Positions 1,695 to 61,289 of a stretch of DNA of 64,000 nucleotides are shown here, piece by piece. A program made the position numbers and the translations under genes. Position 1 is the stretch's first letter; each line of letters begins with the position of its first letter. The stretch lies in assembly GCF_036669915.1 (NCBI RefSeq), contig NC_089315.1:29509631-29573630 (forward strand), written 5' to 3'. The notes beneath the pieces were generated by a model that ran no database searches, was not told the DNA's origin, and saw only the letters and a program-made list of their open reading frames with translations. The stretch comes from Pocillopora verrucosa (lineage: Eukaryota > Cnidaria > Anthozoa > Scleractinia > Pocilloporidae).

Positions 1695-4600
1695 TAGATG
1701 AAGGAGAAAAGAAAACTACTTCTAAACGAACATGTAAACGTAGGATTACTAGCTAGTGAAATTTTTATTTTAGTGGAAAGCAAGCCGACATTGCTTTGTC
1801 TTCTCTGGGGTCTTTGAGTAGTCAATCTCTCAACCAATCAAATGCAAGCTAAAATCAAGTGACTTGGTCACGCGCGTTGCCCGCGCTTCAGGCAGTTTGC
1901 GTGTTTTTACTCTAAGTTCTCCTTTCAAGAAGTTCTGTTAAATAATGCAATTCATTTACCAAGGTCAGTCAGGTCTTCCCACTGGTCCAAAGCGTCTATG
2001 TTCGGGACCAAAAATAAATGAAATCAAAAGGTCAGCCACAGTTACTCATGCGAGAGCAGAAGCGGTGAGGAAAAAGTGGAAAGAAAAGTAACAGACGCGG
2101 ACAAAAACTTTACAGTAAGTACACCATATGCATGTACTTCTCTGAAGTGAAATTAAAATCAAATCGGTCAAACATAAGAAACAACGTTTGGTTATCTAAA
2201 AGTATATGGTATACACAAAATCAGTGAAGGATATGCGACGAATAATGTACACAGAAACAACTAAGACGGTTTGGCAACAATACTACTGGTGTCAATACCA
2301 ACCTTAAGAAGGGCAAGAGCATTTCGAAGAACCAAAAGCGGAGGAGCCTCGGGAGCTTTGGACAAGAAATCACTTATTGACGTGTTTGGTGATGCTAAAA
2401 GTTTTGTGTGCAGACATAATTCCTACAAAATAAAAACAACAGTAATACAATTGAAGCTCCACCTAACACTACTTCTCTTCTTCCAAATGGAACTTTGGGT
2501 GATGACCTAAAAAGATAAACATAAAAATTTCCCTCAAGACATTGGCAAATGCTTCAGTGAAGACTGCCTTCACTCTTAAATTTACTTGGAGAAAGGTGAA
2601 AGCTGCAGAGTTCATAATGCCTTTCCACCCCAACGTCAGTATACATATTTTCCATGATAGTGTTCTCTAAGTGTAGATTTCCCAAGGTGCTGCAAGGAGA
2701 ACTTGTTTAACAGTCAAGAGCTTCTTGAGTTGGTGATCATTTTATTTATTCTCATAAGTCTAATGTGTGATGTTTCAGGAATGATATTGTGAGGAGAAAT
2801 TGGATTCTAGTCACCCTTAGAGGTAGATTAGGGTTATAACATGACATGATACCAACACCTTTCCCAAATCTCATCAACCCTCTACAAGCTTATTATACTC
2901 TCTAAATCCATTTTCAGTTGATCTATCAACAAGCTAGATGAATAAATGCAGGGAAATTCAACACCTGGGGTACACAATAGCTTGAGGAGCAAACTAATCA
3001 GAATCATACTTTTAATTGTAGTACTCACAAAGATGGTTCAATAATTTGGACAACATTGCTGTGTTCCCATTTCTTGGCCCAATCTATTGCAGTCTTGGGG
3101 GAGAGAAATTGTGGACATAAATTTTTTGCATGATTTATTTCAGCAACAAGACCTTGGACACATTTGATGGTATAGGGTATAGAAAAAAAAATTTTCCCCA
3201 CCATTCATTCTTGGTTCCTTAATGCAAGGATTGTTTCCTAAACTTAGCAAACATTGAAGTAGTATTTAGAAAGCTAGTGTGAGGGTTTGATCATTGTTAC
3301 AATATACCCTGCTTCCAGTAGATGTGATTGACTTTTAATACCGATTTATCTAGGGTCTTGTGATTAGAATATAGTGCATTTCAAACTACACTCTGCAGTG
3401 TGTGCATCTTCATACAATTGTGGTATCCAAATATTAAAAAAAAGGGAAAGCATACGGCTGCTTTGGCTGAGTGCTTTTATTTGTTTCAAGATGTTTGGAT
3501 ACAACAATCAAGCCCAAAGCACAAGTTTTTTAGATTGCTTCTTAAACTGCCTTTATTAATTATCACCTAAATCATAACACTATTGTTACATTCTTTTCAT
3601 TGGTTAAATAATTTTGGACATCATTATCAGCTACCTGATTCATCTGTTGTCTCTGTTTGGGTTTCTTTGGGGAATTCAAAGTGTATGCTGAATTTATGGT
3701 AGTGTTGCACTCATTTAGTTTAAAGCTCTGTGGTTAGTTGGAGCTTGATTTAATTGGCAGAACGTAGTGTAGTTAACCGTTTTCATGCCCCAAAAAGTGG
3801 TAAAGAGGAAGATTAAACTGCTAAAGGAAACTGTTCCCAAATCAACAGTTATAGAGACTAGTTTTTCTTTTTGCATTTCATGCTATGCATGAATCTAGAT
3901 ATGTGTTTTTCTTGGACATATGTAGATTCATGCATGTGACAAAATAAAGATATGTATTTTTGTTGAGTATCTAGATTCATGCATGTGACAAAACTTTCTT
4001 CTCATTGGCTGATAACCTGAATGATTGATGGATTTGAAACAACACCAGCACAACCTCATCCTGATGCAACCATCAGGGCAGCAGCCTGCATGTCTGAGTG
4101 TTGGCAGTCAACTGCAGAAGTTCTTTCAATAGTGTTCTAAAGCACAGCTTGTATGATCATGAGAGAGGAAAAGGCTATGCCTCAGTAATCACAGGGGAAT
4201 CATGTTTGGAAATTTCACACCCTAGCGAGCTCATTCTGTTGTGTTTTTGGGTGAGAAATGTAACTCTCTCAGGGCTCCTTTCTACCTAGGGGAGGTGGGA
4301 AGGCTGCATTGGACTAGCATGGCTGTCCTGAATACACAGTATATGTATGGTGCATGCCAAAACTATGAACAAGGAAGAATGTTATATTTTGCCAACTACT
4401 TACCACTTTTTTTTTATGTATGATCAAGTAAAGAATCTGAAAAAAAGGGTCCTCATTACCATATCAAGACAAAAGTATAGGTTACCCTAATTTCTTACTG
4501 ACTTTTACTTGATTTTAAGTTTTAATTTCATCTGTAAGAGTAAAAAGAGTTCACACTTTACATGATTTTTAAATGTATTTACACTTGCATTTGGCCATTC

Positions 4601-4912
4601 CTCTGAAATGCTGTTATCCATTTCTTGACTTTGATATTGTTTGTCACTGTCACTTTCCATGGGGATTAAAAGGAATAATAGTTAATATGAATTTAATGAT
4701 GAAATCAGGTTTTTTTTTACACTTAACCTACGGTTAAACCTACATCATCTTAGTTATCGTTGTCATCACTTTCCAGACCTTGCAAAGCATTATCACCATT
4801 ATCATCTTGAAGTTTGATTCCTCCCACAACTTCATCCAGCACTTCAATGTCTCCATCATCAACTTTATCCTCAATCTCCTCAATAACTACATCATCCTCC
4901 CCTTCCTGAACA
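1695..4912 (-). pseudogene. Inverted partial YTHDC2 copy (exons 11-16 and 24-25)
   Basis: Read on the minus strand, this is a decayed genomic copy of the YTHDC2 interval about 31172-36645. Introns are included, so it arose by DNA duplication and not by retroposition. Recognisable pieces, high to low coordinate: acidic exon 11 (4912-4750), exon 12 (near 4640-4575), a degraded exon 13 (near 4440), the first part of ankyrin exon 14 (4110-4035), exon 15 (near 3080), the first bases of exon 16 (2515-2495), exon 24 (about 2426-2307) and exon 25 (about 2010-1970). Two large changes are visible. An insertion of about 840 bp (3190-4030) interrupts exon 14. A deletion equivalent to 33005-35770 of the intact gene joins exon 16 to intron 23 near 2490, removing exons 17-23. 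It cannot encode a helicase. Exon 24 stays almost unchanged, so the copy is not very old or has been converted. Confidence 0.9.
3190..4030. repeat. Insertion inside the inverted YTHDC2 relic
   Basis: The intact gene has no counterpart to this block between its exon 14 and exon 15 equivalents. It contains an inverted pair (GCATGAATCTAGATATGT near 3894 against ACATATGTAGATTCATGC near 3918) and a direct repeat of AGATTCATGCATGTGACAAA near 3926 and 3971. No reading frame of note was seen. The class of element is not recognised and the edges are approximate. Confidence 0.55.
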
Positions 4913-5924
4913 GAACTGAGACTGATCAAATGAAACAAGAATTGCCAGAAAATCATGACAAAGCTTCAGATGAGCTGTTACTTGAGAACACTTAATTGTA
5001 AACCTAAAATGGTATCCTTGATATTTTTGGAGAATTTTCCAAGTTCATTATCATAAAAATGCCCTCAAGGGAATTCTCATGGTCATAAAAATAACAGAGT
5101 CAATCTTAGGGATTCTGAACACAATCCAAGTCACATTTGGAGTCTATTCTAGAGAGATACCATTTAAACATCGACCAACCAGGTGCAAATATCCCAATAA
5201 TCATCTGAGTTTAAGATGACACATCAGCACCCAGGTTTCTTAGGGAGACATCAGGCAGAGACTTTTTAATTATTTAGGAAGGGTTTGAAAAGTTCTGAGA
5301 ACATCATTTTCATGAAAAACATCATTTGTAATCAGTTTTAATATTTAAGTGCAGTGTAAATAAAATCCTAAAGCAGTGTGCAAAGCTGCATCACTTGTAA
5401 CAATATCAAGGTAATACTAGAATCAAATTACTATACTTCATAGCTGCCACTTTGTCACACCACACAACATGAATCTCCCAGTAGACATTGGGGTCAGTCT
5501 TCTTTGGTCATATTTTTTTTTAGAGATGTCTGCATTGTATCTTGTCTATCTTCTATTCTGAGGGCAGATTGAATCTTAAAACCACAAGTTTTACCTTGCT
5601 TTGTGCAGTGAAATACAAAGATAAACGAGATATTTCCGTCACGAAAGAGATTCATCACAAATATCTAAAAGTAGTGAGGTAAAATTTCTGGGACAGCTGC
5701 ACTCCTACCCCTTCTTTAACCAAACAACAGTCAACTGATAATAAGTTTGGGTTAGGGGAGGGTAAGTGCTCAGTTGTTTGGATACGGACACTGATCCAAA
5801 TTTCTCAATAGACCTTTATTAAAACTGCCCAAACCTCTGCTGTGTAATCAAGCAAATTTATTCTATTCAGGCCTCATAAGCTTCCCAGGTGAAATCAATA
5901 AAAGCATGCATTACTGGTTACTGC
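4913..5924. other. Intergenic spacer between YTHDC2 relic and BTB-kelch gene A
   Basis: No exon could be assigned. If the relic derives from a whole gene copy, exons 1-10 should have lain here, and no trace of them was found. Confidence 0.4.
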
Positions 5925-5960
5925 GATCGCGTGACTGTTTGATTCCTTAGTCACGCGATC
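5925..5960. promoter_or_regulatory. Perfect 12-bp inverted repeat upstream of gene A
   Basis: GATCGCGTGACT at 5925-5936 and its exact reverse complement AGTCACGCGATC at 5949-5960 flank a 12-bp spacer, ending 57 bp before the ATG of gene A. The same core, GATCGCGT(G/C)AC, lies 50-100 bp upstream of the starts of genes C, D and F. The recurrence suggests a shared promoter element bound by a dimer. No factor is named. Confidence 0.55.
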
Positions 5961-6017
5961 AGGATCAGATTCTCCCCAGTGTCTGCTCGTCCAGAATCGA
6001 TAAATTCCTCAACCAAA

Positions 6018-8664
6018 ATGGTCGTAAACAATTGTGAGATGTTGTTATCCAAATGTGCCCAGTTTAAAGAAGAGGGGCAATTCATTGACGTTCGTCTAAA
6101 AGTGGGTGAAGACATCTTTCCAGCTCATCGTATTGTTCTGGCTGCAAATAGCGATTACTTCTACGCCATGTTTACAAATGGAATGAAAGAAGCGAATCAG
6201 GAAGAAATCGAGTTAAAAGATGAAAGTATTTCACCTAATGTTTTGAAGATCATAATGAAATCAATCTACACTGGAGAGTTTCAGTTCAACGAAGATAACG
6301 TGTTTGAAGTCCTTGCAGCAGCAGATCATCTTCAAGTGACGACTGTTGTTCAAAAGTGTTGTGATTTCTTGCTGACTGAGTTTGTTAAACTTCGCTCTGA
6401 TTTTGAAACCTACTCGCGTATCTGGGAAATCGCTCACAGCCATGGCCTCAAGAATCTGCAAGACGCTACTGAGAGTGAAATGGCTAAGATGTATAAAGAT
6501 GTCTGTGAAAGAATTTTTGGCTCATATTGGCGGAGACCAGTTACTCAGCCTCCTTAGTCGTGATGACCTCAATGCACATTCAGAGACGTTCGTCTTCAAA
6601 TCAGTGATGCAGTGGATTAAATACAAGAAGGAGGAGAGGTTGACTGTTGCTGCCAAAGTTATTGGAGCTGTTCGTTTGGGACTGGTGGATATACGAGAGC
6701 TACTCGCTGAGCTTGACACGCAAGAAATGCGAATGCTTCCAGAAATAAATACGTTTTTGCTTGAGTCGTTCTTATACAGCTACCGGCCTTCAAGTAGCTC
6801 CGAGTTCGCTACAAACAAAACAAAACCGAGGTCCATGAAATCGGTAAGGCAAACACCATTGATATTTCTAGATCTCGTGGAAGGTCTTAAACAGGGCTAA
6901 CTTGAGCCTATCCGCGGCTGGCTGAGTTCAATAGTCCAAAATTACGACAACGTTATTGACAATTCAAAAAGAAAGTTGAAATGCAATATTAAACCTCAAC
7001 AAGCATAAGCTATCTTTAAAGTGAGAATACTGGGTGGAATAGAGTAGAATGACAGCAAAGAACGAAGCCAGGGAAAACTACCTTGATTATAAATGTTTTC
7101 AGGCTAATGATGAATCTGCCGGGAAAAATCAATTATAAAGTATTGCAAGCTACAATGACTATGGATTGAAATCACATTATTTATTCAATTTCAAAAAAGA
7201 CAGTTGAAACATAACATTCCACATCAACCTCTTCCATAAAGTTTGCTCATGGCGTCACTGGTTAAAAATTTGGCTTGTCCAAATGGGAAATAAGAAACTT
7301 TTAGAAAGTACGCAAATGATCTGTGAGATCGATGGTTCGAAAGCACATGACAACAGATTGACGTCGTTTCTTGGATGGATCCGGGATTTAGTGAAGGACG
7401 GCTCCAGACTAAATGTCCGCCGAAAAAGAATCAATCTAGGGGGTCGGGGGGCATGCACCCCCCGGAAACCCGGAAAGGCACTTGATGAGATGATTGTAGG
7501 TTCTTTTATGCCTTTGAACCAATTTATTTCTGTTTTAAGCTATTTTAACATCCACTACGTTCAATATAGTTTTTCAGTAGTTTCGACCCGAGCTAAACCA
7601 CTCCTTGATCTGCTCCAGCGTTCATTGTGACAGGAGACTTCATTGGTGTCGTGATTGACGTAAAGTGAAATACACTTTCCTAAATCTCCAATAGCTTGCT
7701 CTATCACGTTCACTTAACTCAATCATTTTGGTCTTGACAGGTTCTTGTGGCCATTATTCCTCAAGCCCAGATGCAGTACTTTGATTTTGAAACCAAAAAC
7801 TGGAAACCTCTACCATCCATGACTCAATTGACTGAGGCAGACGCGTGTTTCTGTGCAGAATATGTTGGTAATCACTTGTATGTAGCGGCGCAAAAAGGGA
7901 GAGATTTTATTACGTATCATTATGATATAGTTACTGATACCTGGGGCTCATTACCACCTATTTTAGGGTGTAATCAAAAGATCGATTCCTTATGTTCTAT
8001 TGGTGATTATATCTACGCAATTAGAGAATCGACGCCACCCCATAGGTTTAGTTTAAAAACAAATCAAAGGCAGTGTATACAACCATTTAACACCAGAGAA
8101 ACTTGTCCGAATACATTTTGTGGTAAAGCGTCCGTTGTTTCCCCAGACAACTCAAATTTGTTGATACTTCAGGGTCAAAGGAAAAAAAATTCTAATAAAG
8201 ACGAGTTTGACTTCTGGGCGGAGAAATCTGCCGTAATTTTTTGCTTTGATCCCGAAAGGAATGAGTGGAAATGTAAAACATCAACTGAAAGTGCTCATTT
8301 TAGATCCTGTCTTTTCTTAGTAAACAGGAAACTATGTATCGCAGGGGGTACGAGTTCTATTTGTTTCATTTCTGGCACACCCGATAGGGAAGGAGCAGCT
8401 TCAGTTGAAGTTTATGATGAGCAAAACAACAAATGGACCTATGTTAAACAAAACCGTATTCCTAAAAACAATCTCGGTGCGGTTGAAGTAGAAGGGAGGG
8501 TGTATTTCATCATCAATAATTTCCCAATTGATAGTGGAATTAGGATTCCACCAGATGAAGTGTATCCTGTGCCTTTAGATGAATGGGAGAATCTTAGAAA
8601 GGTTGATAATAACGCAGTGTTGTGCTACCTACCTGTGAGGAGCGAGAGTTTAACAGCAGAGTAA
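6018..8664 (+). pseudogene. BTB-BACK-kelch gene A, one frameshift
   Basis: The gene has two exons, 6018-6843 and 7741-8664, joined in phase 0 as in the intact paralogues. Exon 1 begins [16 protein letters not shown], aligned with the start of genes C and F; an upstream in-frame GTG at 5979 is not a likely start. It encodes BTB (about residues 12-120; contains [19 protein letters not shown]) and BACK. Near 6510, between DVCE and EFLAHI, two bases are missing against the 828-nt exon of C, D and F, shifting the frame inside BACK. Everything after it ([30 protein letters not shown]) continues in the other frame. Exon 2 is a fully open kelch exon of 307 codons with a [11 protein letters not shown] motif. 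Family proteins are substrate adaptors of Cullin-3 ubiquitin ligases. Because the rest is intact, this may be a recent pseudogene, an allele or a sequence error. A polyadenylation signal lies at 8714. Confidence 0.85.
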
Positions 8665-8713
8665 TGCTTGTAATTTGAATCAAACTTGCTGTTGTTAACT
8701 TTGTCAACTGAAG

Positions 8714-8719
8714 AATAAA
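8714..8719 (+). terminator. Polyadenylation signal of gene A
   Basis: AATAAA lies 50 bp after the TAA of gene A and is the only canonical signal close downstream. Confidence 0.55.
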
Positions 8720-9726
8720 TACAACCTAAAGTTAGTCTAACTTGGATGCCGGGGTGTTGTCCTAGTTCAAAAGCCGAATGCTTTTTGCGTTTCATGAATG
8801 TTGGTAGAATGCGTTCCGATCTGGTGGTCCCATGTTCCAGATTTCCACCCCGTTAACCATTGTATTCCTTCGATTTCTCGCTTGCCAAGAGTCAGTTCAC
8901 TCTCCTTGGCTGCACTCTATAAATGACGAACTGGTCTGCCGTATGCCTTTTGGAAAATTCCACCAATTTATTTTTATTGAAAGGTTTGTCCAGTTTCGGT
9001 AGATCGTTGAGATCCGTTTTTGTTAAGGCATAACTGAATGTTAAAGTCTAATCCAAGGAACGGGAAGAGGTATTCCTTACTTGGGTGATATCTTTTATGC
9101 TTCGTCTTTGTTCTTTGTTGCGTAACACTCTCTGCTGAATCGACAAATCTTCATTTGACCCTTCACTCTCGACTCTGATGAGGTCTTCCTCTAAGACTGT
9201 GTCTATTACCGACAACAGTCCTTCTCAAGACTACCCCCACCCTGACGATCAGACTTAACGATTAAATATTACTCCCGGGTTCAAACCATTTACTAGAATA
9301 AAGGTTTTTCTATCCAATTACTACATTCTTTTCATTTTACAAAGAAAAAAACTGAAAGAGAAGCAACTACACCATCATTAGATATTTTACAGTGTGCTAT
9401 GACAAATAATGCATGTACAACAAATGTTATCCCAGACTGCAGCTGGCGGTTGATTAACACAGAAATAGTCGAGTGGTAGAAACTTACTGTGAAACTGTAA
9501 AAGACTCGAAGCGTACTTTGATAGTCGGAAATAGTCTTCAACAGTGCTTTCATTGGAACTTACACAGTTTTCCAAATATTTAAAACGGAATCTATTTAAA
9601 CCAAAAATAATATTGCATGAGATCAGCGGTCGTGTAAGAGCGCTGTGATCAGTGGGTTTGCCTCGACCCACACCATGAGGAAAACTGACCGAGAATACCT
9701 GGAGACGAAGTTGTAAAAGTGAGAGA
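8720..9726. other. Intergenic between genes A and B
   Basis: No exon was recognised. The stretch 9208-9294 is a fragment of the foldback family seen complete at 46612-46781: it shares ACCGACAACAGTCCTTCTC and the tail CCCGGGTTCAAACCATTTACT. The genomic promoter motif GATCGCGTGAC of the other BTB genes is not obvious in front of gene B. Confidence 0.45.
9208..9294 (+). repeat. Fragment of a foldback repeat family
   Basis: It matches the right arm and tail of the palindromic element at 46612-46810. Only one arm is present, so it cannot fold back. Confidence 0.6.
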
Positions 9727-11149
9727 TGGATACCTATTCTGGAATTCTCTAGACCAAATGTGCTCAGTTTCGAGACGAAGGGCAATTTGTCGACGTTCGT
9801 TTAAAAGTTGGTGGAGAAACTTTTCCCGCTCATCGCAATGTGCTCGCTTCGTACAGCGATTACTTCTACGCCATGTTTGCAGATGGAATGAAGGAGTCCA
9901 ACCAGGAAGTGATCGAGCTGAAAGATGAAAGCCTTTCACCACACGTCTTCAAGGTCGTTATGGACTCCATCTTCACTGGTAAACTTCAGATCCAAAGGGA
10001 AAACGTGTTTGAAGTTCTTGCTGCCGCAGACTATCTTCAAATGAGGAATGTTCTTAAACAATGTTGTGATTTCTTGTTGACTGAAATTATTCAGTCAGAT
10101 CGATTTGATGTACAAATGTATTGTCGCGTTTGGACAATTACCGATAAACACAGCCTTAAAGAAGTTAAGGAAGCCGCAGATCACAAGATGGCATCCATGT
10201 ATACAGATGTTAGTGAAAGTCGAGAGTTCCTGTCAAATATCAACGCAGACCAACTACTCAGCCTTCTCGATCGAGATGACTTTAATGTACCTTCGGAGAC
10301 GTTCGTCTTCATATCAGTGATGCAGTGGATTAAACACAAGAAAGAGGAGAGGTTGCATCCAAAGTTATCGGAGCAGTTCGTTTGGGTCTGGTGTACGTCA
10401 AAGTCGTGATTGAAGAACTAGAAACCGAAGAAATGAAGCGAGATCCTGAGATCAACGAACATCTGCAAATAGCAATGAAGCGTCATTGCATGCCTCACAA
10501 ATTTTCTGCAGAGGAAGTGAATCCGCGATCGATGAAAATGGTAAGATGGTAAATATCCCACACAAAGTAGGACCCTTATAACTCAGGAGCATGGACAATG
10601 AAAGTCAGCTAGTTTTGTACTCTCTATTGTCAGTCAGTGCTATAATTTCCTTTCGCATAATTCAAGTATGATTTTACGTTGTGCTATTTGTGCGGAACCC
10701 GTAAGCTAACTTAAATTTGCTTTTGAACGTGATTCGTCTGAGTAATAGTATCAAGCTATAATTTATTTACTTCGATTTCAATCAAAGCCCTACAAATTTT
10801 TATCAACCTTGTACCGAATTAGCAGTACTTTCGTAGATTAAAAATCTTTTTAACGATAGTCACGAGAACAAAAGACCGCATGCCGACGACTTTTGATTTC
10901 TAGTAGTTTCTAATCACACCGGATGGACACTTGATGGGTCTGTGTTACAGACGTTGAGTATAATTATTGAATATTGAGTGTGCTCGGCTACTTTATTTTT
11001 GGCCATCTTTTATTGAATCCATTTTTTGGCTTTCAGCAAAGTAACTAAATTACAAAGGATATCACAGGTTTTATCAGTGCCACCTCATTAACAAAGGTAT
11101 TTCGCATAAAATTTGTCGGACATGAATTTGTGGACCAGCACTATTTATG

Positions 11150-11345
11150 GCCTGGGGAGGGGGGGGGGGGGGTCAGTCGTTGCCGACATCTTTTAAAGGG
11201 GGGACTAATAAAAGAAAACTGACTACCAATTAACTGCCAAAGAGGGTGGGGGAACATAATCTTACAAAGCCTTAAGGGATCAGGTAAATTTCATAGTGAC
11301 ACAATTATTCCTCCGAACCCCCCCTCCCCCACCCCTCTCCCCGTG
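11150..11345. repeat. G-run/C-run flanked repeat in gene B intron
   Basis: The block starts with a run of about 17 G and ends in CCCCCCTCCCCCACCCC, so its ends are inverted. The interior (ACTGACTACCAATTAACTGC, CATAATCTTACAAAGCCTT) resembles the interior of 61840-62075. It looks like a non-autonomous repeat family. Confidence 0.6.
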
Positions 11346-11367
11346 GCGACAAATCATGAGCAATTCC

Positions 11368-11402
11368 TAATATAATATAATATAATATAAAGATAATATA
11401 AT
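11368..11402. repeat. TATAA microsatellite
   Basis: A short tandem array of the 5-mer AATAT/TATAA lies just before the kelch exon of gene B. Confidence 0.8.
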
Positions 11403-12130
11403 CTCTTTCTTACTAAGAAATGTTTTATCCTTATGCTGTAGGTTCTTGTTGCATTTTGCCCATTTAAGAGGTCAAATCATTTCAGTAATGATCGAGAAGA
11501 GAGGCCTCACTACTTTGATGAGGAAAGTAAAGAATGGAAACCGTTAAAATCTGTGCCAGATGTAGGTGAAGTAGGTATAAAGTGGTCTAGTGCGAAATAT
11601 ATCGGAAATTATTTGTATTTAGCCTCATCGTGTGTCAATGAATCAGATATTCATCGTTATCATATGATAGAAAAGTCTTGGCAAAAACTTCCAAGGTTGA
11701 GTTTTCCTGAGATAATCCAATGTTTGTGTTCTATTGGTGACTATGTTTATGCAACAAGTCAGTCTAGTCCACCCGAGATTTACACTTTGGCTGACAACAC
11801 CAGGCAGCAGTGCAGGGATAACTTGCGTTTATTTGCACAAGAAGGGTTAGATACTGTAGCAGCGGCAGTAATGAACTCTAAGTTATATGTTTTGCATGGG
11901 TTCCCAACGAGTCAAACATCGAGCAAAACCTGCCTTAGTGCAATGTTTTGACCCACAACTAGTTATCCTCACTTTGGATCCAGTCTTATTGTTGTCAATA
12001 ACAGACTGTATGTGGCGGGGGTGAAAACGGAGTTTTATCGAGGTGTGCCGCACGGTGAAAATGCACCGGTAGAAGCTTTTAAGGAGAAAAAGAGACCTTC
12101 ATCTTGGTTTGTACAGTTCGGACAGTTTGC

Positions 12131-24603: not shown

Positions 24604-24822
24604 TATATTGGTTACAACGTTTCGCGATCAGATTTCGCAAAACAAATTAAACCTTTGAAAATCTTTCTTCGCTCAGTCCGTCATGTCCTCCACGTGGGTC
24701 AAATTTCTCATCAGGGAGGGATCGCACGGGCAGAAATTTACATTGATCCTGTTAGATCAGCGGTACAAATCTGAAAAAGTACGTTATGTAAATTGAATCT
24801 TATGTAACTGCAGATATCAAAG
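24604..24822. promoter_or_regulatory. Bidirectional promoter between NOL6 and YTHDC2
   Basis: Only 219 bp separates the NOL6 ATG (minus, 24603) from the YTHDC2 ATG (plus, 24823), so both 5' UTRs and both core promoters must overlap here. No TATA box is evident; TTTCGCG and CACGTGG motifs are present. Shared control of a ribosome-biogenesis gene and an RNA helicase gene is inferred from spacing only. Confidence 0.7.
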
Positions 24823-46990: not shown

Positions 46991-48850
46991 TCACCTCTTA
47001 ACAGCCAAATAACTAAGAACTGCACCCTGGTCGATTTTTGCCAAATTCTCCCACTCTTTCAGAACTGTATGATGAAGCTTCCCGTGAGTGAGTCTGATTC
47101 CACTGTCATAAGGAAATTGGTTAATGATAAAATACACCCTCCCTTCTATTTCCACCACACCGAGGCTGCTGTGGGCGGGAACATTTTTTTGCTCAACAAC
47201 AATCCAAGCGTTGGTTTCTTCGTTATACATTTCTACAGATGCAGGATTACCACATGGACGATGACATCGGTCGCTAGAAACTTTGCCCCCAGCAACATAA
47301 AGATTACCGTTCACTACAAGAAGACTGGATCCAAAGTGGAGTTGGGAAGTGTTTGCTTTTTTCGCCCACTGGTTTTTTTGTGGATCAAAACAGTATAATA
47401 CGGCTGGATTCACGATCGATTGACTTTTCTCTACATAGAGGACATAAACTTTGTTATTTAATACTGCTATACCGCTATAGAAAAATGACTTCTTAGTCTC
47501 GTCACAGAGAGTTATTTCATCTTCCATTCGAAAGTATCTCCACCTACGTTGAACGAAATTGTACCTTTCAGAATTTCGTGTGCAGTCAGCAGGAAATGAG
47601 TAGATGTGGTCTGCTGTAACACAAAGATGTTTTATTTCACCACATGAATGAGTAAGCCTCTCCCACGCATTTGTCTCCGGGTCATAGCGATAAAGGCAGT
47701 GACCAAGGGAGTCATTTGCGGCAACCACTAACTTATCGGCAGCAGACACCGCAGAGTAACAATGGGTCGCCAGAGTAGCTGATGTAGAGACTGACAACGG
47801 CTTCCAAGTCTTGGTTCCGACATCAAAAAACTGCAAGTGAGAACGAGGCGAAACAGCAACAAGAACCTGAAATACAATTACCGGAAAGTGATATCTGGAA
47901 AAAAAAAAAAAAAGACTAAAAACGATAAAGCTACACAACTCTACCCTCTCAAAATATTACTGTACATAAAAATCTTAGCTATGGTAATGTTTGCCCTGGA
48001 AAATACTACTTAAGTCACTTACCGGGCTTTTTGATCGTGGCTTCGTTTGATCCCTAGAAGACTTGGGTTCATGAGATGGCTTGTGTTTATAGACTGCTGC
48101 TTCATAGACTTGTTTGTGAATATCAGGCACTTGCTGCATCTCCTCCGTATTCAGGTCGTCGAGCGCAACCGTAATGTCCACCAGCCCCATACGAACAGCT
48201 CCAATAACTTTGGCTGCAACTGCCATCCTCTCTTCCTTCTTGTAGTTAATCCACTGCATCACGGATTTGAGGATGAACGTCTCAGAAGGTGCACTGACGT
48301 CATCTCGGCTGAGAAGGCTGGTTAATTGGTTTCCACCGATGTGCATCAAAAACTCATTGCTCTCACAAACATCTGTATACATCTTAGCCACAGCACACTC
48401 TGCAGCGTCTTGCAGATCTTTCAGCCCATAGCTCACCGCAATTTCCCAGATCCGACAGTAAGTTTCAAAGTCTAAACGAATCTTGACGAACTCGGTCAGC
48501 AGGAAATTACAACACTGATGAACAGCACTCGCGACTTGAAGATGATCTGCGGCAGCAAGAACCTTGGACACGCTTTCCTCGTTTACAAGGAGATCTCCAG
48601 TGTAGATGGAGTCCAGTATGATCTTAAAAACATCTGGTGAAATGCTTTCATCTTTCAGCTCGATCACTTCCAGGCTTGACTCCTTCATTCCATCTGTAAA
48701 CATGGCGTAGAAATAATTACTACTTGCGGCCAGCACGATTCGATGAGCTGGAAAGATGTCTTCACCAACTTTTAATCGAACGTCGATGAATTGACTTTCG
48801 TTTCGAAACTGAGCACATTTCGACAGAAGAATATCGGCGTGGGCAACCAT
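46991..48850 (-). CDS. BTB-BACK-kelch protein C
   Basis: Two exons, 48850-48023 (828 nt) and 47866-46991 (876 nt), give an intact 567-residue protein. Exon 1 starts [15 protein letters not shown] and encodes BTB (about 12-120, with [10 protein letters not shown] and YFYAMFTDGMKES) and BACK (about 125-230, with SVMQWINYKKEERM). It ends SKSP before GTAAGT. Exon 2 starts VLVAVSPR after TTTCAG and encodes kelch-like beta-propeller blades, including YRYDPETNAWERL, CFDPQKNQW, LYVAGGK and [12 protein letters not shown]. Family members bind Cullin-3 through BTB/BACK and choose ubiquitylation substrates with the kelch domain; the substrate is unknown here. Its closest relative in the window is F. A double GATCGCGT/ATCGCGTGAC motif lies 81-100 bp upstream. 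It converges with YTHDC2. Confidence 0.93.
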
Positions 48851-48930
48851 ATTGCTGAAGGAAATGATCTCACTCTACTTCAATATCAACAACAGATCAG
48901 AAAGTGCCTTACGGTAATACGGTGTTTAGG
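48851..48930 (-). promoter_or_regulatory. Immediate upstream region of gene C
   Basis: No TATA box is visible. The segment ends at the GATCGCGT repeat pair listed separately, which is shared with the sister genes. Confidence 0.35.
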
Positions 48931-49916: not shown

Positions 49917-52318
49917 TCATTCACTTTTCGTATATTCTCTTTTTAGAGGCAAATAGCAAAGAACTGCACATTGTTCAATTTTTCCTAAGTTCTCCCACTC
50001 ATCCAGAGGAACAGGATACAACTCCCCTGGTGAAATTCTAATCCCACTGTCAATTGGAAATTTATTGATGATGAAGTACACCCTCCCTTCTATTTCCACT
50101 GCACCAAGATTATTGGCGGGAATATGTTCTTGTTTAACAACAGACCAGGTGTTGGTTTCCTCACTATACACTTCTACTGGTGCGGGATAATTGTGATTTT
50201 GACAAGTACATTTGCCCCCAGCAACAAAGAGTTTACCATTTACTTCGAAAAGACTGGATCCAAAATGAGGTTGGCAAGTTCTTGCCTTTTCTTCCCACTC
50301 ATTCTTAGCCGGGTCGAAGCAGTGTAATACTGCTGGTTTATACTCTCCTCCTGTATGAGACGTATTGCCACAGAGGACAAATATTGATACCTTTGAATGA
50401 ACTATTGCTCCAATATTGCAGGCCTGATAATAAGCATTTGTGCTTAGCTTTGAAATGCTTTGCCACTGCCTTTTGCTAATGTTGTACCTATGAGGAACCT
50501 GACCTAAATAAGAACTAAAAGCATAAATGTAATCTCCTAGAATACACAAATTGTTAATAAATTGTGTGGAAGGAAGCTGCTTCATCTCCCAAGCATTACT
50601 CTCTGTGTCGTAACGATAAAATAAAAGGTCACCAACCAGGGCTTGTCCCGCAACGAACAAGTTGCAGCCAACAGAGACTGCAGCATGGCAATTCAACGCC
50701 TGGATCGACGGTACTGTCGAAAGTAAAGATTTCCATGTTTTGCTTTGGAAATCAAAATATTTCATTTGGGCTTGAGGAAGAACTGCAATCAGAGCCTGAA
50801 ATGAAAGAGTAACGTATCCGTTAAATCCAGTTAAATCCAGTCACCGGCCTACTGCTGGTAGTGACATTCAAAACGGCAGGTGAAGAAACTGAGTCATTCA
50901 CATATGGATAAAGGGGATAAATTCCAAATAACTGTGATGCTGTGTCAGTGGGGAATGTAACAAGATAATTTGGTATTATCAACTGAGTTTATAACGCAAA
51001 CTGGCCACCATAAAGAGTTTCTTTACGGTGGCTAATTCACATTATCAACTCAGCTGAGTCATTAGAAGACTTTCTCATTTCATCTCCCGTTGTTCACCCA
51101 AGTATTGCTTTTCTTCCTTCTTCTCACTAACCGAGAACTTGACGCAAGCTAGATCTCTACACCATGCGTCGTTTTAACGTATGCAAACATCATGTGAATA
51201 CCAGTAACAATCACAGACTAAGACAACAGTAGTATAATCCTCTTAACATTCGCTATTAGGCCAACAGAGTACGCCCTGGTCCCCAGTAGTATTACCGCCC
51301 ATCCCCCACCCCCTTTGCGAACGGTCAAGCTCATCGAATACCTTTATTCTTTTGAGAAGTGAAACATCGCCTCTTCATTTGAAAGATCTACGCAGCTGGG
51401 GTATGATCCTTTTTAATGAATCTTTCACGGTCCTATCCTAAGATGGCCTGTTTGTTACAAATGAGAATCGTTGAAATAACGTTAACTCGCCTGACTTGTT
51501 GATCTTGGTTTAGTTCTTTCCTCAGCGAACTTGGATAAATTAGAGGGCATGTTGCTATGGACTGATGCTTCATACACTTGCTTATAAATCTCAGGATCTC
51601 TTTTCATCTCTTCAGAGTTCAGTTCTTCAATCACAACTCTGATGTCCACCAGCCCCAGACGAACAGTTCCAATAACTTTGGCTGCAACTGCCATCCTCTC
51701 CTCCTTCTTGTGCTTAATCCACTGCATCACTGATTTGAAGACGAACGTTTCAGACGGTGCACTGAGGTCATCTCGGCTGAGAAGGCTGACTAACTGGTCT
51801 GGTTCTATAATGGACAAAAATTCTTCGCTTTCACAGATATCCTTAAACGTTAATGCCATTTTGCTCTCCGCCGCCTCACGCAGATCTTTCATACCGTGTC
51901 TATCGGCAACTGTGCAGAGCAGACAGTAATTCTGCAGGTCCAGTCGGAGCTGAACAAATTCTTTCTTCAGGAAATCACTGCAGCGTTGTACAACACTCGC
52001 CACTTGAAGGTGAAATGCTGCAGCGAGTACTTCAAACACGTTTTCCTCGGTGACATGAAGATCTCCAGTGTAGATGGAGTCTAAGATGATCTTTAGAGCA
52101 TTTGACGTGATGCTTTCGTCTTTCAATTCAATTACTTCCTGGCTTGACTCCTTCATTCCATTTGTAAACATGGCGTAGAAATAATCGCTACTTGCAGCCA
52201 GCACGATTCGATGAGCTGTAAAAACGTCTTCGCTGACTTTTAATCGAACGTCGATGAATTGACCCTCATCCCTAAACTTAGCGCATTTTAAAAGGAGAAT
52301 CTCCGAGGATGCAGCCAT
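49917..52318 (-). CDS. BTB-BACK-kelch protein D (GC-AG intron)
   Basis: Exons 52318-51491 (828 nt) and 50795-49917 (879 nt) make an intact 568-residue protein. The start is the ATG of [15 protein letters not shown], aligned with the other paralogues; an upstream in-frame GTG is not a plausible start. BTB spans about 12-120 ([18 protein letters not shown]), BACK about 125-230, and the propeller follows from [16 protein letters not shown] with [19 protein letters not shown] and a [18 protein letters not shown] motif. The donor reads CAG followed by GCGAGT, a GC-AG intron, where the paralogues have GT. Using it keeps the phase-0 junction and the exact 828-nt exon. The C-terminus ([12 protein letters not shown]) is most like gene A. 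The likely role is Cullin-3 substrate adaptor; substrate unknown. Confidence 0.92.
50974..51056. repeat. Short foldback in gene D intron
   Basis: TATCAACTGAG and GCCACCATAAAG on the left are mirrored by CTTTACGGTGGC and a TTATCAACTCAG variant on the right, an imperfect palindrome of about 80 bp without coding capacity. Confidence 0.6.
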
Positions 52319-52364
52319 TTTAACAAGAGACACAATTGGATTCGCACGACTCCGTCACTCGCTT

Positions 52365-52375
52365 GATCGCGTCAC
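52365..52375 (-). promoter_or_regulatory. GATCGCGTCAC motif upstream of gene D
   Basis: About 50 bp before the ATG; one base different from the GATCGCGTGAC motif of genes A, C and F. It supports a shared promoter element within the cluster. Confidence 0.4.
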
Positions 52376-54418: not shown

Positions 54419-55407
54419 CTAGCTCCGAGCTTCTTTCAATTTAAGTCTTTTTTTTACAGGCAAATAACGCAAGACTGCCTGCTCACTTTCAGTCCGTAAT
54501 TTTTTCCATTCATCAAGATTAACCTGGTGCGTGTCCTCTGACTGAATTCTTATCCCACTGTCGACTGGAAATTTGTTGATGATAAAATATACCCTCCCTT
54601 CTATTTCCACGGCACCGAGACTGTTGGTAGGAATATGTTTCTGTTCTACAACAGACCAGCTGTTTGGTGGTTGTTTTGCTTTCCCTTTACCAAACCAAGG
54701 TAGAAGTCTTTTTTTTTCTTTAAAAACTTCTACCGGTGCATTTTCACCGTACGGCCCACCGCCACAACCCCACCCCTTTTTCCCCCCTACCACATACAGT
54801 CTGTTATTGACAACAATAAGACTGGATCCAAAGTGAGGATAACACGTTGAGGCGACGCTTTCCCATTCATTTTTTTGGGGGTCAAAACAATGCACTAAGG
54901 CAGGTTTTGCTCTATTTGCTAAAAGCAAACTAGAAGGGTCTTCAATGATCCCATGCATAACATATAACTTATAGTTCATCACCGCCACTGCTACAGATTT
55001 TAACTCTATTCGTTTAAATAAATACAAATTTTCCCTGCATTGCTGCCAGGTGTTGTCAGCCAAACTGTAAATCTCGGGTGGACTAGATTGACTTATTGCA
55101 TAAATATAGTCACCAATAGAACCAAACATTGGATTATCTTGGGGAAACTCAACTTTGTAAGTTTTTCCCAGGACTTGGTCACTATGTGATAACGATAAAC
55201 ATCTGATTCTACGATATTTGATGAGGCTAAATACAAACAATTTCCGATATATTTCACACTAGACCACTCTTCTACTACTTCACCTACATTTGGCACAGAT
55301 TTTAACAGTTTCCATTCTTTACTTTCCTCAACAAAGTAGTAAGGCATCGGTTCCCGAACAGTTCTGTAAAGGTTTGACCTCTCCAATGGGCAAAATGTAA
55401 CAAGAAC
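54419..55407 (-). pseudogene. Kelch exon E, frameshifted and without a BTB exon
   Basis: After a GTAG acceptor the exon starts VLVTFCPLERSN at 55407 and follows the kelch exon of gene B closely. At about 55130 one base is missing against gene B (CAATGTTTG then TTCTATTGG), so the frame breaks after FPKIIQCL and resumes as IGDYIYAISQSSPPEIY. The rest is open to a stop at 54419 and includes CFDPQKNEWESVA, LYVVGGKKGWG and [18 protein letters not shown]. An extra lysine- and tryptophan-rich insert (KEKKRLLPWFGKGKA) sits between the last blades. The intron upstream is also homologous to that of gene B as far as 56221. There the similarity stops before any BTB exon, so gene E lacks its first half. 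Confidence 0.88.
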
Positions 55408-56220
55408 CTACAGCATAATAATAAAACATCTCTTGGTAAGCAAGGGATTATAAAATCTCTTCAGGTAAGGCATCGGACAGGATTTATCGCCTCGGGGGGA
55501 GGGGGAGAGGTGGAATTCGGAGGAATAATTGTGTCACTTTGTAACATGTTGGCGACGACTGACCCCTCCCCCTAGGCGACAAATAATGCAGGTTCCTAGA
55601 TTCAAGTCCAACAAATTAATGCGAAGTTTTTGTTGGTACACCAGGCAGAACCAAAAAAAAACCTCATTTTATATGTTACAGGAAATGGGGGTTGGGTTTT
55701 TCATTGGGTTATTTTTCGCACACTTTACTCCTATCGGACTGAAGCATTTCGTTTGTAATTTTCGTAACATATCGAAATCCCACAGTGAATATGAATACCT
55801 TTTAACGGAGGGTACCGATAAAAACTGTGATATCCTTTGTAGTTTAGTTACTTTGCTGAAAGCCAAAAAATGGATACAAGAAAAGATGGCCAGAAATAAA
55901 GTAGCCGAGCACACTCATAACTCAATAATCATACTCAACGTCTGCAACACAGACCCATCAGGTGTCCATCCGGTGTGATTAGAAAGTACTACAAAGTAAA
56001 AGTCGTCGGCATGCGGTCTTTGTTCGCGGGAAAAAAAGATTTGTAATCCACGAAAGTACTGGAAATTCGATTCAAGGTAAATAAAAATTCGTAGGACTTT
56101 GATTGAAATCGAAGTCAGTGAATTATAGTTTCATTACTCATACTCAGACGAATCACGTTCAATCAGCAAATACAAGTTGGCTTACAGGTTCCGTATGAGT
56201 AGCACAATATAAATCATACC
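55408..56220 (-). pseudogene. Inverted copy of the gene B intron
   Basis: On the minus strand this matches 10660-11442. Both contain the GCCGAGCACAC/GTGTGCTCGGC block, the GTGATTAGAAA-type flank and the AACGTGATTCGTCTGAGTA block, in the same order and inverted relative to each other. The G-run repeat of gene B intron survives only as a short GGGGGGAGGGGGAG tract near 55494. Confidence 0.8.
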
Positions 56221-56247
56221 TGAATTACAAGCATTACTCTGCTGTTA
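56221..56247 (-). pseudogene. 27-bp stub of an A-like gene's 3' end
   Basis: Reverse-complemented, this is TAACAGCAGAGTAATGCTTG followed by TAATTCA, matching the stop codon region of gene A (8649-8677) with about one mismatch. It is wedged between the gene B-like intron and the YTHDC2 relic, in the position expected for the end of an inverted copy of gene A. Confidence 0.7.
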
Positions 56248-56249
56248 CA

Positions 56250-58055
56250 CTAAGATTGCTGCATGTCTGTGGTTATTTGGAATATAATATTATGTAGATG
56301 TTACTGAGGTATTTCATTTTCTTCTTTTAAGGGCATTTCGGCAACAACACTAGCCAATGAAAAAAAGCTAAACAAAGCCTTCAAGGTTTGTTTTTGTAAC
56401 TCTGGAGGATGGAGGAAAGTCCGAGCTGCAATAAATTTATTGAATATCTGATAATTGGAAATAGATTCCAGGATAATTTTGAGCGGCAAAGATCTTAGAA
56501 GGAACTTAAAGTAAGTGTGCCCATACTAAACTGATTTTGTTTGTAGGAATCTAAGCATGTTATGCTGGTCTTCTCCGTGCAAGGAAGTGGACACTTTCAA
56601 GGTTATTGGTCTATTTTATGGAGGAACCTACTGATATACACTCGCAAATAACATGTCATATTATTCTTGGGAGACCAGATACCTTGAGCCTAGAAATAAC
56701 TTGAGACGGGTTGCTATAAGGCGTCTCAAACGAAGGGTTCAGCCTCCAAGTATCATCGTCTCTTGATTTATTTAAGAACTAATCTCCGAGAATTCAAAAA
56801 GAAAGTTCTTGCCATTCTGACCAGGTTCATTCTCTTTTGTTTCAGGCTATGCATAGATGACGTCACCCATTGGCAAAGACAAGTCTCTGGAGTTTGGTTC
56901 AAGTTCGCTAAGTGGTGTTTTTAGTGTCGAATGGATAAAAAAGTATGTGCTGTTCATGCACTTATTGTAACGTATTTGCTGTTTTCTTCATTAAACTCCA
57001 CATCAATAACTTGCTAAGTCTTAGTCAGGACAAAAAGGGATTATATTTTGGTGAGTTAGAAGACGTACACTGACATAGAAAAATTTAAAGTAAAAATGTA
57101 TCACTCTCATGAGTCACATCTTGTCATATCTTATCATGTTTTATATTCTCCTTTCAAGTGTAACCAAAGTCCGTTTTCCCATTATACCACAGAGCCATTA
57201 TTCCATTCCAACAAGCTCACCACCTTGTCAACCCTTGGAATGATCACAAGAAGGTTCAGATTTGTCGCGATGGACAAGTAAATGCAAATCACTACAGTGC
57301 ACTATGAAGAGGTTACTCTCTTGATAAGGGATAAGAGATAAGACAAGACTACAGCGCACAGGGTTGGAAAACCAAGAGCTCCTTTATCTCCAGCTTAAAG
57401 GTCTTAAAGGTGCCCTCGGCTGTATTCTTTTCAAAGCATTTTCATTTCCTGCGGACAACAATAGAATCGTGAACAATCGAAGGAAAAAACTTCACCTGTG
57501 AAAACGCCTTTGCTCTAAAAAAGGGGAAGATAAACTCATCGGGAGATGGGCTTCGGTTACCCTGTGAATTCAAATTAAAGGTCTAAATTGATAGCCCACG
57601 AACGAATGGTGCCGAAACTAAATCAAGAATTGGAAATCTAGGAATCACAAACATGCTCATCTTCTGCAAAAGCTGGAGCCTAAAATAGGGGAAGACCTCT
57701 GCAAACCGATCCCCACCCCACCACTGGTCAGTGGCAAGGTGCACAGTACACTGCCATGCAACAGGTGTACGCCACCCACACCCCCTCCATGCCAATACCT
57801 GATCCCATTCCTTCAGCGCACTCTCGACTTACCATTGCTGCACCGTGTTCTCGTCCCCAAGTTATGGCGGCCCAGCCTATGGCTGTCCATCCACATCACG
57901 CCCTCCCTTTCGGTGCTCATGCAATGGCACTGAAGTCTCAGTTTCGTCCAACGGCGTCTCCAAGGTTCCCCGGGGCAGTTGTTCAGGCACCCCATATAAG
58001 GACAATGGGTGCACCACACGTGCATCAAGAGGCTCGTGTAATTCTCCAAGGAAGT
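56250..58055 (+). pseudogene. YTHDC2 3' relic (exons 40-44, YTH domain)
   Basis: A direct-orientation genomic copy starting in intron 39 of YTHDC2. It contains exon 40 (56333-56386), exon 41 (56548-56602), exon 42 (about 56846-56941), exon 43 (about 57193-57277) and exon 44 (about 57668-58050), with introns. In exon 40, GIWATT has become GISATT, so the first aromatic-cage tryptophan for m6A is lost (TGG to TCG). In exon 42 the CAG after GYA has become TAG, a stop. Exon 44 has a deletion of about 110 bp joining CTCTGCAAAC to CGATCCCC, and its acceptor is weakened (GCAAAAG for GCAGGAG). The proline/histidine-rich end is otherwise well kept, to SPRK and a TGA. No YTHDC2 promoter or helicase exons are attached. 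Confidence 0.92.
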
Positions 58056-58776: not shown

Positions 58777-58933
58777 TTTGACGCTACTCTGGTTTATAGA
58801 TTTAATGAATGTAACCGAAGAAGTTACAGTTCAGAGACACAACGTGTGTCGAAGGAGTGTCGAAACGTTGGGTCTATGAATTGTAACTTCTTCGGTTACA
58901 TTCATCAAATCTGTAAACCAGAGTAGCATCAAA
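58777..58933. repeat. Foldback element 2
   Basis: Arms of about 68 bp are inverted copies with a few mismatches: GCTACTCTGGTTTATAGATT and ATGAATGTAACCGAAGAAGT on the left against ACTTCTTCGGTTACATTCAT and CTGTAAACCAGAGTAGC on the right. The loop carries GTGTCGAAACG, which recalls the foldback at 46612-46781 (GTTGTCGAAACG). Confidence 0.82.
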
Positions 58934-59361
58934 CCATGTCTTACCGATAGGTGTTATCGCTCTTGTTATCAACTGATTACATAACGATATGACACGGAAT
59001 AAACGTTATTTAAAAATCAAATCAAGTCAAGAACGTTAGAGAGAATAACCACAAGGTGCACATGACACACCCGCCTCCCTTACGTCTACTGTGAAAACTT
59101 TCTGCTGATAAAATATCCCTAAGTCCATTATGACACAGGAGTAGAACGCCTCCTAACTCTTCGAGAAGGCCTTCCTACACGCAGTGTTATATAGATGATA
59201 AAAGCATCTGTAGTTAATCACGTACACGGGTATTTATGGGCGCACTTTCACATTTTCTCATAAAGAACTGCACTATTCGTAAAATCATTAGGGTTGTGTT
59301 CCAATTGGCGAAAATAAAACATACGGTAAGAGCACTTTCACCGTATCCACTGTTGTGTCTT
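58934..59361. other. Intergenic, convergent side of gene F
   Basis: No exon recognised. The end nearest gene F should include its 3' UTR. Confidence 0.4.
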
Positions 59362-61289
59362 TCACACCCCATCCTTTCTAGTTATAACCAGGAAACCAAG
59401 GGCTGCATTTTGGTCGATCTTTGCCAAGTTATCCCACTTGTTCAAGAGAGCAGAATCCAGGCTCCCATGTGCGATTCTGATCCCACTGTCAACTGGAAAA
59501 TTATTGATGACAAAATAAATTCTGCCTTCTATTTCCACTGCATTTAGATTGTTGGCGGGAATACACTTTTGCTCAACAACAGACCAAGTGTTGGAGTCTT
59601 CGTTATACATTTCTACAGGTGCAGGGTTACCACTTGGAAGATTATTATCCCTGTCAATAGAACCTTTGCCCCCAACAGCGTAGAGTTTGTCGTTCACTAC
59701 TATAAGACTGGATCCAAAGTGACGATGTTGGGTTGTTGCTTTCTTTGTCTCCCACGCATACGTTTGTGAATCAAAACAGTGTAAAACTGTTGGTTCAACC
59801 AAAAGGCTATGGCGCGAAGCTTTGTAGTGTCCATAAAGAGTAAACACTTTTGAATGCAAGACGGCTGCACCACTAAACGAACTAGCACTACTGATGAAAT
59901 GTACCCCGATGTTGTGCCACTTACGTTTAGCGAAATTGTAGCGGTAAGTAGAATGTTTGAAATCGGCAGGGATTGCGTACAAGTATTCCTCTAAAAGACA
60001 CAGATTTTTTGTTTCACCACATGGGTTTGGAAGTCTCTCCCACACATTTGCCTCTGGGTCATAGCGATAAAGGCAGTAACCAATGGAGTCTTTTGCAGCA
60101 ACAAACAAGTTATTGCCAACGGATAACGCACAATAACAATGAGTGGCATCAATAAACGGTGAACCGATTGGCAACCATTTCCAAGCCTTGGGTTCGACGT
60201 CGAAGTACTGTATTCTAGCTTGAGGTGAGACAGCAACAAGAACCTGAAACAAAATCACAAGGTTATAAATAGGATGACAAGAAACTGATAACCGAAAAGG
60301 AACGACGACAATTGAGGATGAAGGAGAATGACACAGACTGCTAATAACATACTTAATTGCACTCATCTTAAAACGCAATATATTTTTAAGAAAAACTCTA
60401 TTGTAGCCATGTAAGTCTTACATTTTCAAGTTTCAAACTTTTTTTTTCGGAAAACACTTACCGGGTTCTTTGATCGTGGCTTTGTTTGCTGCCTAGCGGC
60501 TTGAGGTTTATGGGAAGGTTTGTGTTTATAAATTGCTGCTTCGCACACTTGCGCATAAATCTCGGGAACCTGCTTCATCTCCTTCGTATCCAAATCGTCA
60601 ATCACAACTCCAATGTCTGCCAGCCCCAGACGAACAGTTCCGATAACTTTGGCTGCGACTGCCATTCTCTCCTCCTTCTTGTGTTTAATCCACTGCATCA
60701 CAGATTTGAAGACAAACGTCTCAGAAGGTGCATTGAGGTCATCTCGGCTAAGAAGGCTGACTAGTTGGTTTCCACCGATGTGCGTCAGGAATTCTCTCCT
60801 CTCGCACACATCTGTATACATCTTAGCCACAGCACACTCTGCAGCGTCTTGCAGATCTTCCAGCCCATAGCTCACCGCAATTTCCCAGATGCGACAGTAA
60901 GTTTCAAAGTCGAAACGAATCTTGACGAACTCGGTCAGCAGGAAATTACAACACTGATGAACAGCACTCGCGACTTGAAGATGATCTGCAGCAGCAAGAA
61001 CCTTGGACACGTTTTCCTCGTTTACAAGAAGATCTCCAGTGTAGATGGAGTTCAGTATGATCTTAAAAACATCAGGTGAAATGCTTTCGTCTTTTAGCTC
61101 GATGACTTCTTGGTTGGACTCCTTCATTCCATCTGTAAACATGGCGTAGAAATAATCGCTATTCGCAGCCAGCACGATTCGATGAGCTGGAAAGATGTCT
61201 TCACCAACTTTTAATCGAACGTCGATGAATTGACTTTCGTTACGAAACTGAGCACATTTCGACAGAAGAATGTCGGCATGGGCAACCAT
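59362..61289 (-). CDS. BTB-BACK-kelch protein F
   Basis: Exons 61289-60462 (828 nt) and 60243-59362 (882 nt) encode an intact 569-residue protein. [15 protein letters not shown] is used as the start because it aligns with gene C; an in-frame upstream ATG at 61349 would add 20 residues. BTB and BACK are about 87% identical to gene C by eye, while the kelch exon is only about 50-55% identical. The kelch exon has YRYDPEANVWERL, CFDSQTYAWE, LYAVGGKG, VEMYNEDSNTWSVVEQ and GRIYFVINNFPVDSGIRI. The junction is phase 0 (SKNP, then VLVAVSPQ). The expected role is Cullin-3 adaptor with its own substrate. It sits convergent to the YTHDC2 relic, just as gene C sits convergent to YTHDC2. Confidence 0.93.

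Follow-up and report, generated by a model that had tools for sequence, protein, structure and literature searches.

In the 64,000-nucleotide stretch of Pocillopora verrucosa DNA analysed here (the window), part of a BTB-kelch gene cluster has undergone segmental duplication and left pseudogene remnants; such events are ordinary where animal gene clusters have grown by tandem duplication. The central YTHDC2 gene (the parent), an apparently intact RNA-helicase gene, is flanked by an inverted relic on the left and a direct relic on the right, as the earlier note had claimed, and self-BLAST matched them to separate parts of the gene. We consider it probable (about 0.6) that, within a single period, YTHDC2 was duplicated as part of a local block together with one B-type and one A-type kelch gene (on the right, with C and D as well), and that the block then decayed.

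Table. Features of the YTHDC2 locus, with positions counted from the first letter of the window.
Feature	Position	Strand	Remarks
Left YTHDC2 relic	1702..4912	-	matches parent 36639-35769 and 33017-31170; inverted matches 78-94%
Insertion in coding exon of left relic	3251..4037	.	interrupts the match to the parent, which stops at 32245 and resumes at 32238
A, BTB-kelch gene and upstream region	4907..8816	+	frame change near 6510
B, BTB-kelch pseudogene	9736..12113	+	frame changes, stops
Central YTHDC2 gene	24808..43847 (approximate span)	+	apparently intact; exon matches to human probe and domain scores
C, BTB-BACK-kelch gene	46991..48874	-	both exons open
D, BTB-BACK-kelch gene	49917..52354	-	both exons open; D' in right flank, 66111-68140
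E, kelch exon and intron only	54419..56227	-	frame change near 55120
A-stub, 3' end of A-type gene	56223..56251	-	29 bp at junction of E and right relic
Right YTHDC2 relic	56246..58055	+	matches parent 41919-43845, minus 43402-43490
F, BTB-kelch gene	59362..61349	-	open

Judged by its sequence, the parent is a YTHDC2-type gene. A human YTHDC2 probe, an approximate query sequence, matched its exons in order from residue 26 to residue 1419 across 24.8-43.4 kb (tblastn). In an exon-by-exon Pfam search, R3H, HA2_C and YTH were at or over their cut-offs (R3H, with 26.8 bits, exactly at its own), and OB_NTP_bind, HA2_N and Ank were below theirs. When the genome was searched with parent 27300-31169, the matches listed (best 40 of 4701 candidates) were filled by one repeat; parent 24808-27299 and 33018-35768 were compared within 244 kb. 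In the 244-kb comparison, YTHDC2 matches past A', an A-like gene in the right flank, were repeats only, which counts against the block-duplication reading. An 88-bp match between parent 35142-35226 and right-flank positions 97215-97302 was rejected as a third relic; it is a palindromic repeat, because 35142-35314 matched 97.0-97.3 kb in both orientations and also itself inverted.

The inverted self-BLAST matches of the left relic paired 1702-2186 with parent 36639-36153 (87.9%), 2176-2480 with 36073-35769 (94.4%), 2478-3250 with 33017-32245 (79.7%), 4038-4303 with 32238-31963 (81.4%) and 4320-4912 with 31711-31170 (77.6%); parent 33018-35768 and 36074-36152 were missing. The direct matches of the right relic paired 56246-57706 with 41919-43401 (80.6%) and 57702-58055 with 43491-43845 (91.0%). 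By tblastn, the human probe matched three exon pieces on the left and four on the right, where the last exon was visible by DNA alignment. Because the parent intervals do not overlap, the relics have no exon in common, as had been noted earlier; this leaves no direct test of their relation and counts against the block-duplication reading. To call them two "halves" of YTHDC2 was an overstatement, as they are small fragments with 132 (left, acidic exon excluded) and 226 (right) alignable codons.

Both relics carried inactivating lesions. The left one had one in-frame stop, two single-base exon deletions and one exonic insertion, of which positions 3417-4037 belong to a dispersed repeat, with parts matched at 74-84% by nine other places, and positions 3251-3416 had no relatives, in each case among the matches listed (best 40 of 2831 candidates). 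A dispersed repeat in a parent intron (32657-32867) was also present at the corresponding site of the left relic (about 2620-2820). The right relic, which is truncated, showed a single-base deletion in its last exon and two in-frame stops, of which the one at parent codon 42561 is clear and the one at 41995, which may fall in the splice acceptor, is doubtful. Introns were retained: noncoding sites aligned at 78.5-92.7% in six of seven blocks, the seventh (R2) being all exon. With intron retention and inactivating lesions both present, we read the two relics as remnants of duplicated (unprocessed) pseudogenes without function.

A comparison of ages, proposed in the earlier note, gave no clear difference between the main parts: noncoding mismatches numbered 186/1048 in the larger left part and 162/1009 in the right relic (p=0.32). 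However, divergence within the left relic was not uniform. Its smaller part, matching parent 35769-36639, was anomalously parent-like (62/587 noncoding mismatches): it differed less from the parent than did either the rest of the left relic (p=1e-4) or the right relic (p=0.002), and the change-point lay at parent 32902, ahead of the deletion junction. Gene conversion from the parent was considered for this tract, but in its simple form it sits poorly with a tract that extends across a deletion junction; constraint on introns close to exons is a possible alternative. dS was 0.200 for the right relic and 0.187 for the whole left relic (0.317 and 0.053 by part), and among the neighbours 0.219 for D/D' and 0.262 for E/B. 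Noncoding K2P values were scattered: 0.182 for the right relic, 0.154 and 0.266 (83 sites) for the B/E intron, 0.138 and 0.075 (repeat part) for C/D intergenic DNA, 0.106 for C/C'', and 0.199 (94 sites) and 0.460 (54 sites) for D/D'. This scatter, the uneven left relic and the position of F all count against duplication of the block within one period.

The gene order around the relics was mirrored. The expected inverted diagonal between the left and right arms was present in the self-comparison, and E matched B through both intron and exon, as had been claimed (10658-11101 with 56227-55794, 85.2%; 11289-12111 with 55544-54691, 77.9%). B similarity stopped where a dispersed repeat starts, near 12118, and for B 10450-12300, E was the only non-repeat relative among the matches listed (best 40 of 1230 candidates). 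None of A, B and E is intact. The kelch exon of E scored over the cut-off for Kelch_1 and Kelch_6, and E yielded no BTB exon. The stub of A previously seen on the right is real but tiny; inverted, it matched A 8675-8647 at 28 of 29 positions, with short common sequence at both of its edges. A chance match was rejected: with up to two mismatches allowed, its 25-bp core occurs at only three places in the 353-Mb genome (A, the stub and A'), all in this cluster. The mirrored order B-A-YTHDC2 was supported on both sides. The core had 0/25 mismatches to A vs 1/25 to A', and the stub cannot separate A from the older A'.

Copies were also found beyond these units. C and D, each with BTB, BACK and kelch domains over the cut-offs, have copies right of the window (C'' and D', 64.1-68.1 kb) that are collinear with them, intergenic DNA included; the duplicated block was therefore larger than YTHDC2/A/B. 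F sits between the right relic and C''; its BTB exon is C-like (89-91%), whereas its kelch exon is far more distant (68-70%), and no BTB-kelch match was seen at the counterpart position between YTHDC2 and C. Within 244 kb the longest match to A was A' (76611-73243), with both exons open. A' looks older (A'/A dS 0.518) and was rejected as a mirror partner of the same age. Similarly, G (69.5-72.2 kb) was rejected as a recent tandem copy of E, with identities of 60% to E and 52% to B; it clustered with B/E in the kelch tree (support 98), and B-G support was only 54 in the BTB tree. YTHDC2 is present three times, but A, B, C and D have only two young copies apiece, a tally that counts against the block-duplication reading.

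The history proposed in the earlier note, an ancestral inverted duplication of YTHDC2/A/B followed by deletions, held in part. The mirrored order and orientation and the similar divergence of the main parts (the smaller left part being less diverged) agree with it, but the locus is not limited to two copies without other units, as the copies of C and D and the three YTHDC2 show. Moreover, one such duplication does not give relic(-), intact(+), relic(+), because the right copy is direct with respect to the central gene. In the block duplication that we favour, the right copy would comprise E, the A-stub, the right relic, C'' and D', oriented as the central gene, and the left partial copy would comprise the left relic, A and B, inverted and decayed via deletions and a repeat insertion. 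Two origins fit the left copy equally well, namely inverted duplication, and tandem duplication with a subsequent inversion. The latter route, in which B-A-YTHDC2-C-D was duplicated in tandem and the B-A and YTHDC2 piece of the left unit then inverted, is plausible but somewhat doubtful, and as one form of block duplication its odds overlap with those given above. It needs no inverted duplication and accounts for A(+) B(+) YTHDC2(+) on the left as well as for the direct right-hand unit, and tandem duplication is described as common in the coral genomes treated in PMC10236652; yet the left relic would still need a further origin, and no inversion breakpoint was identified. That the relics are unrelated partial duplications flanking the gene by chance would agree with their lack of a common exon and with the deviating left part, but the mirrored arrangement of genes, B/E and the A-stub included, makes this quite improbable, as does the similar divergence of the main parts. 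An assembly artefact, for example unmerged haplotypes, has no specific point in its favour and is very improbable, given the 16-18% noncoding mismatch of the main parts, the inactivating lesions and the presence of an insertion in just one of the copies.

The alternative to later deletions is that the right copy was born truncated, by one replication-based event with template switches that linked the E intron to a YTHDC2 intron through the 29 bp of an A-type gene and copied only the YTHDC2 3' end, C and D directly in tandem, the left relic being a separate event. The direct collinearity of YTHDC2 3' end/C/D with right relic/C''/D' and the short sequences flanking the 29-bp piece are in line with this, and one junction would replace the large deletions. 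However, order and orientation of the stub would then equal those of the left arm by coincidence, and the dN/dS of the right relic, 0.23 (0.13-0.42), is lower than expected for a fragment that lacks a promoter and 5' exons; birth in truncated form is therefore unlikely. The bootstrap P(dN>=dS/2) was 0.0035 (0.03 and 0.0475 for the two segments taken separately), and simulation of a copy dead from birth gave P 0.002, or, with transition bias, 0.0005 (nonsynonymous count) and 0.006 (ratio). Because this ratio is too low for a born-dead fragment, the substitution pattern suggests that the right relic was probably once functional and truncated later, which supports the large deletions after duplication assumed previously. 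Under block duplication, the right copy would have started out as a functional YTHDC2, or at least as a functional protein that included this part. It would have stayed under protein-level constraint for some of its existence, and deletions would later have removed its 5' region and the larger part of A. That the lineage once had a second working YTHDC2 here, under protein-level selection before truncation, is a tentative reading with somewhat less than an even chance. The left relic, with dN/dS 0.43 (0.23-0.88), neither favours nor rules out a functional past.

YTHDC2 is a conserved germline regulator. The locus leaves the general picture unchanged, but it offers a datable case of such a gene swept along while a tandem gene-family cluster turned over, and one in which the functional past of a truncated relic is testable from the substitution pattern. 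If a second working YTHDC2 did exist, the locus would record how a meiotic gene gained a duplicate and lost it again.

Related cases are described in parts of published studies. Songbirds have YTHDC2 expansions (YTHDC2L1 to L6) which, like the coral relics, are lineage-specific duplicates, at least one of them strongly truncated; however, they are spread over several chromosomes, with transcription of L1 and L5, whereas here two dead fragments flank the gene (parts of PMC4377847). Drosophila Bgcn likewise derives from a Ythdc2 duplication with domain loss, but is a kept, diverged gene and not a pseudogene relic (sections of eLife 30919, PMC5832417). In two corals, tandem duplicates make up almost a third of predicted genes, according to passages of PMC10236652, whose main text has zero occurrences of BTB, kelch, YTH, inverted and pseudogene. 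As in that survey, gene clusters were duplicated locally at the present locus; unlike there, the duplication took in an adjacent helicase gene, whose copies then died.

Self-comparison of the window (29509631-29573630 on its contig; genome total 353 Mb, 52 contigs), with 80 kb of left and 100 kb of right flank (244 kb total), recovered both broken YTHDC2 copies beside the central YTHDC2 gene (the parent). Because the matched parent intervals are separate, the two relics have no exon in common, as the earlier note had claimed, although its word "halves" was too strong, each relic being a small part of the parent. Judged by exons that match a human YTHDC2 probe in order and by R3H, HA2_C and YTH domains that reach or exceed Pfam cut-offs, the parent is a YTHDC2-type gene. 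In genome-wide searches the right relic matched itself and the parent only, and parent 36640-41918 matched itself and seven short stretches (55-66 bits). The remaining matches to the parent within 244 kb are read as repeats because they recur at several places or are palindromic at 97.0-97.3 kb. Introns of the parent carry a short dispersed repeat (29069-29281; many genome copies, up to 95% identity) and a palindromic repeat (35142-35314) also found in both orientations at 97.0-97.3 kb in the right flank. A left-relic coding exon holds an insertion of nearly 800 bp (3251-4037), part of which (3417-4037) has relatives at at least nine other places (74-84%; best 40 of 2831 candidates scored).

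YTHDC2 relics and right-flank kelch-cluster genes, in window coordinates
Feature	Position	Orientation	State	Remarks
Left relic	1702-4912	inverted		matches parent 31170-33017 and 35769-36639 (self-comparison)
Right relic	56246-58055	direct		matches parent 41919-43845 (self-comparison)
C''	about 64.1-65.5 kb		broken	right of window
D'	66.1-68.1 kb		no stop or frame change within its match	right of window
G	69.5-72.2 kb		no stop or frame change within its match	right of window
A'	73.2-76.6 kb		no stop or frame change within its match	right of window

The mirrored order of BTB-kelch neighbours proposed earlier is real, since B and E form an inverted match (10658-12111 with 54691-56227), intron included, and between the right relic and E sits a 29-bp piece of an A-type gene's 3' end, placed and oriented as the left side predicts. 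The 25-base core of this stub occurs at three places in the whole genome at up to 2 mismatches: A (0), the stub itself and A' (1). E was the sole non-repeat relative of this piece of B among the matches listed (best 40 of 1230 candidates scored). C''-D' is collinear with C-D, intergenic DNA too, so that the right-hand unit resembles a direct copy of the parent's surroundings, with one gene, F, added in between. A' is the longest match of A in 244 kb, and similarity stops at 4907, where the left relic starts; with dS 0.518, against 0.219 for D/D', 0.262 for E/B and 0.200 for the right relic, it looks older than those duplicates. G joins B/E in the kelch tree (support 98) despite much greater divergence; support for a B-G grouping in the BTB tree is slight (54). 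Among the BTB-kelch genes, the broken ones are A, B, E and C'', and the open ones C, D, F, D', G and A'. F (59362-61349) and C (46991-48874) are 89-91% identical in the BTB exon and 68-70% in the kelch exon, a pattern suggestive of gene conversion at exon level, or of exon shuffling, among paralogues.

The history first envisaged, one inverted duplication of YTHDC2/A/B, is too simple, given three copies of YTHDC2 and the direct orientation of the right one. The comparisons support a block duplication, belonging to roughly a single period, that took in B-type, A-type and YTHDC2 genes, and on the right also C and D; they likewise support a unit in direct orientation on the right, a partial one in inverted orientation on the left, and decay of both YTHDC2 copies. 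The mode may have been inverted duplication, or tandem duplication plus inversion. For dN/dS, codons were counted only in exon parts with a probe-fixed frame, omitting gapped codons, an acidic exon at about 31.0-31.35 kb and nine edge bases (33009-33017). Over 226 codons the right relic gave dS 0.200, dN 0.046 and a ratio of 0.23 (0.13-0.42). The comparison is of one pair without outgroup, exon limits are approximate, and one of the stops counted may lie in a splice acceptor. For a copy that was dead from birth, with its parent under constraint, a ratio of about 0.45-0.5 is expected (P 0.0035 by bootstrap and 0.002 by simulation; with transition bias, 0.0005 for the nonsynonymous count and 0.006 for the ratio). 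The right copy was thus most likely working sequence, cut short later, and deletion subsequent to duplication is favoured over an origin as a fragment. The left relic (132 codons, ratio 0.43, 0.23-0.88) is uninformative taken whole (simulation P 0.745 on the exon 11-16 side, 0.037 on the exon 24-25 side). Yardstick ratios were 0.35 for D/D', 0.29 for A'/A and 0.70 for E/B. Six inspected junctions share about one to about ten bases. Such overlaps are compatible with microhomology-mediated joining and do not discriminate between deletion and template switching.

With approximate exon limits for the coding/noncoding split, noncoding mismatches to the parent were alike on the left exon 11-16 side (186/1048) and in the right relic (162/1009; p=0.32), but the left exon 24-25 side had fewer (62/587; against these two, p=1e-4 and 0.002). 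The left-relic change-point, at parent 32902 (reached by 0/5000 site shuffles and 6/5000 block shuffles), lies ~115 bp ahead of the deletion junction, so high identity spans the junction. Around this internal junction, noncoding windows in 2176-2480 and about 2478-2592 show 93-97% identity to the parent, well above the remainder; conversion, intron constraint or a later event may account for the tract. Other noncoding K2P values range from 0.075 to 0.460, with the extremes coming from stretches that are small or repetitive: A/A' 0.192-0.251, B/E intron 0.154 and 0.266, C/D intergenic 0.138 and 0.075, C/C'' 0.106, and D/D' 0.199 and 0.460.

PMC5832417 describes YTHDC2 as an ancient animal germline helicase, Cnidaria included, with Bgcn as its fly duplicate. 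Songbirds carry YTHDC2 duplicates, some truncated (PMC4377847), and almost a third of predicted genes are tandemly duplicated in two corals (PMC10236652). This locus is a well-resolved example of an already known kind. Imperfect palindromes occur at 46607-46786 (88.8% self-inverted identity) and 58769-58941 (84.6%), and a further direct duplicated pair, 73% identical, lies outside the window in the right flank (91293-92030 and 93521-94216).
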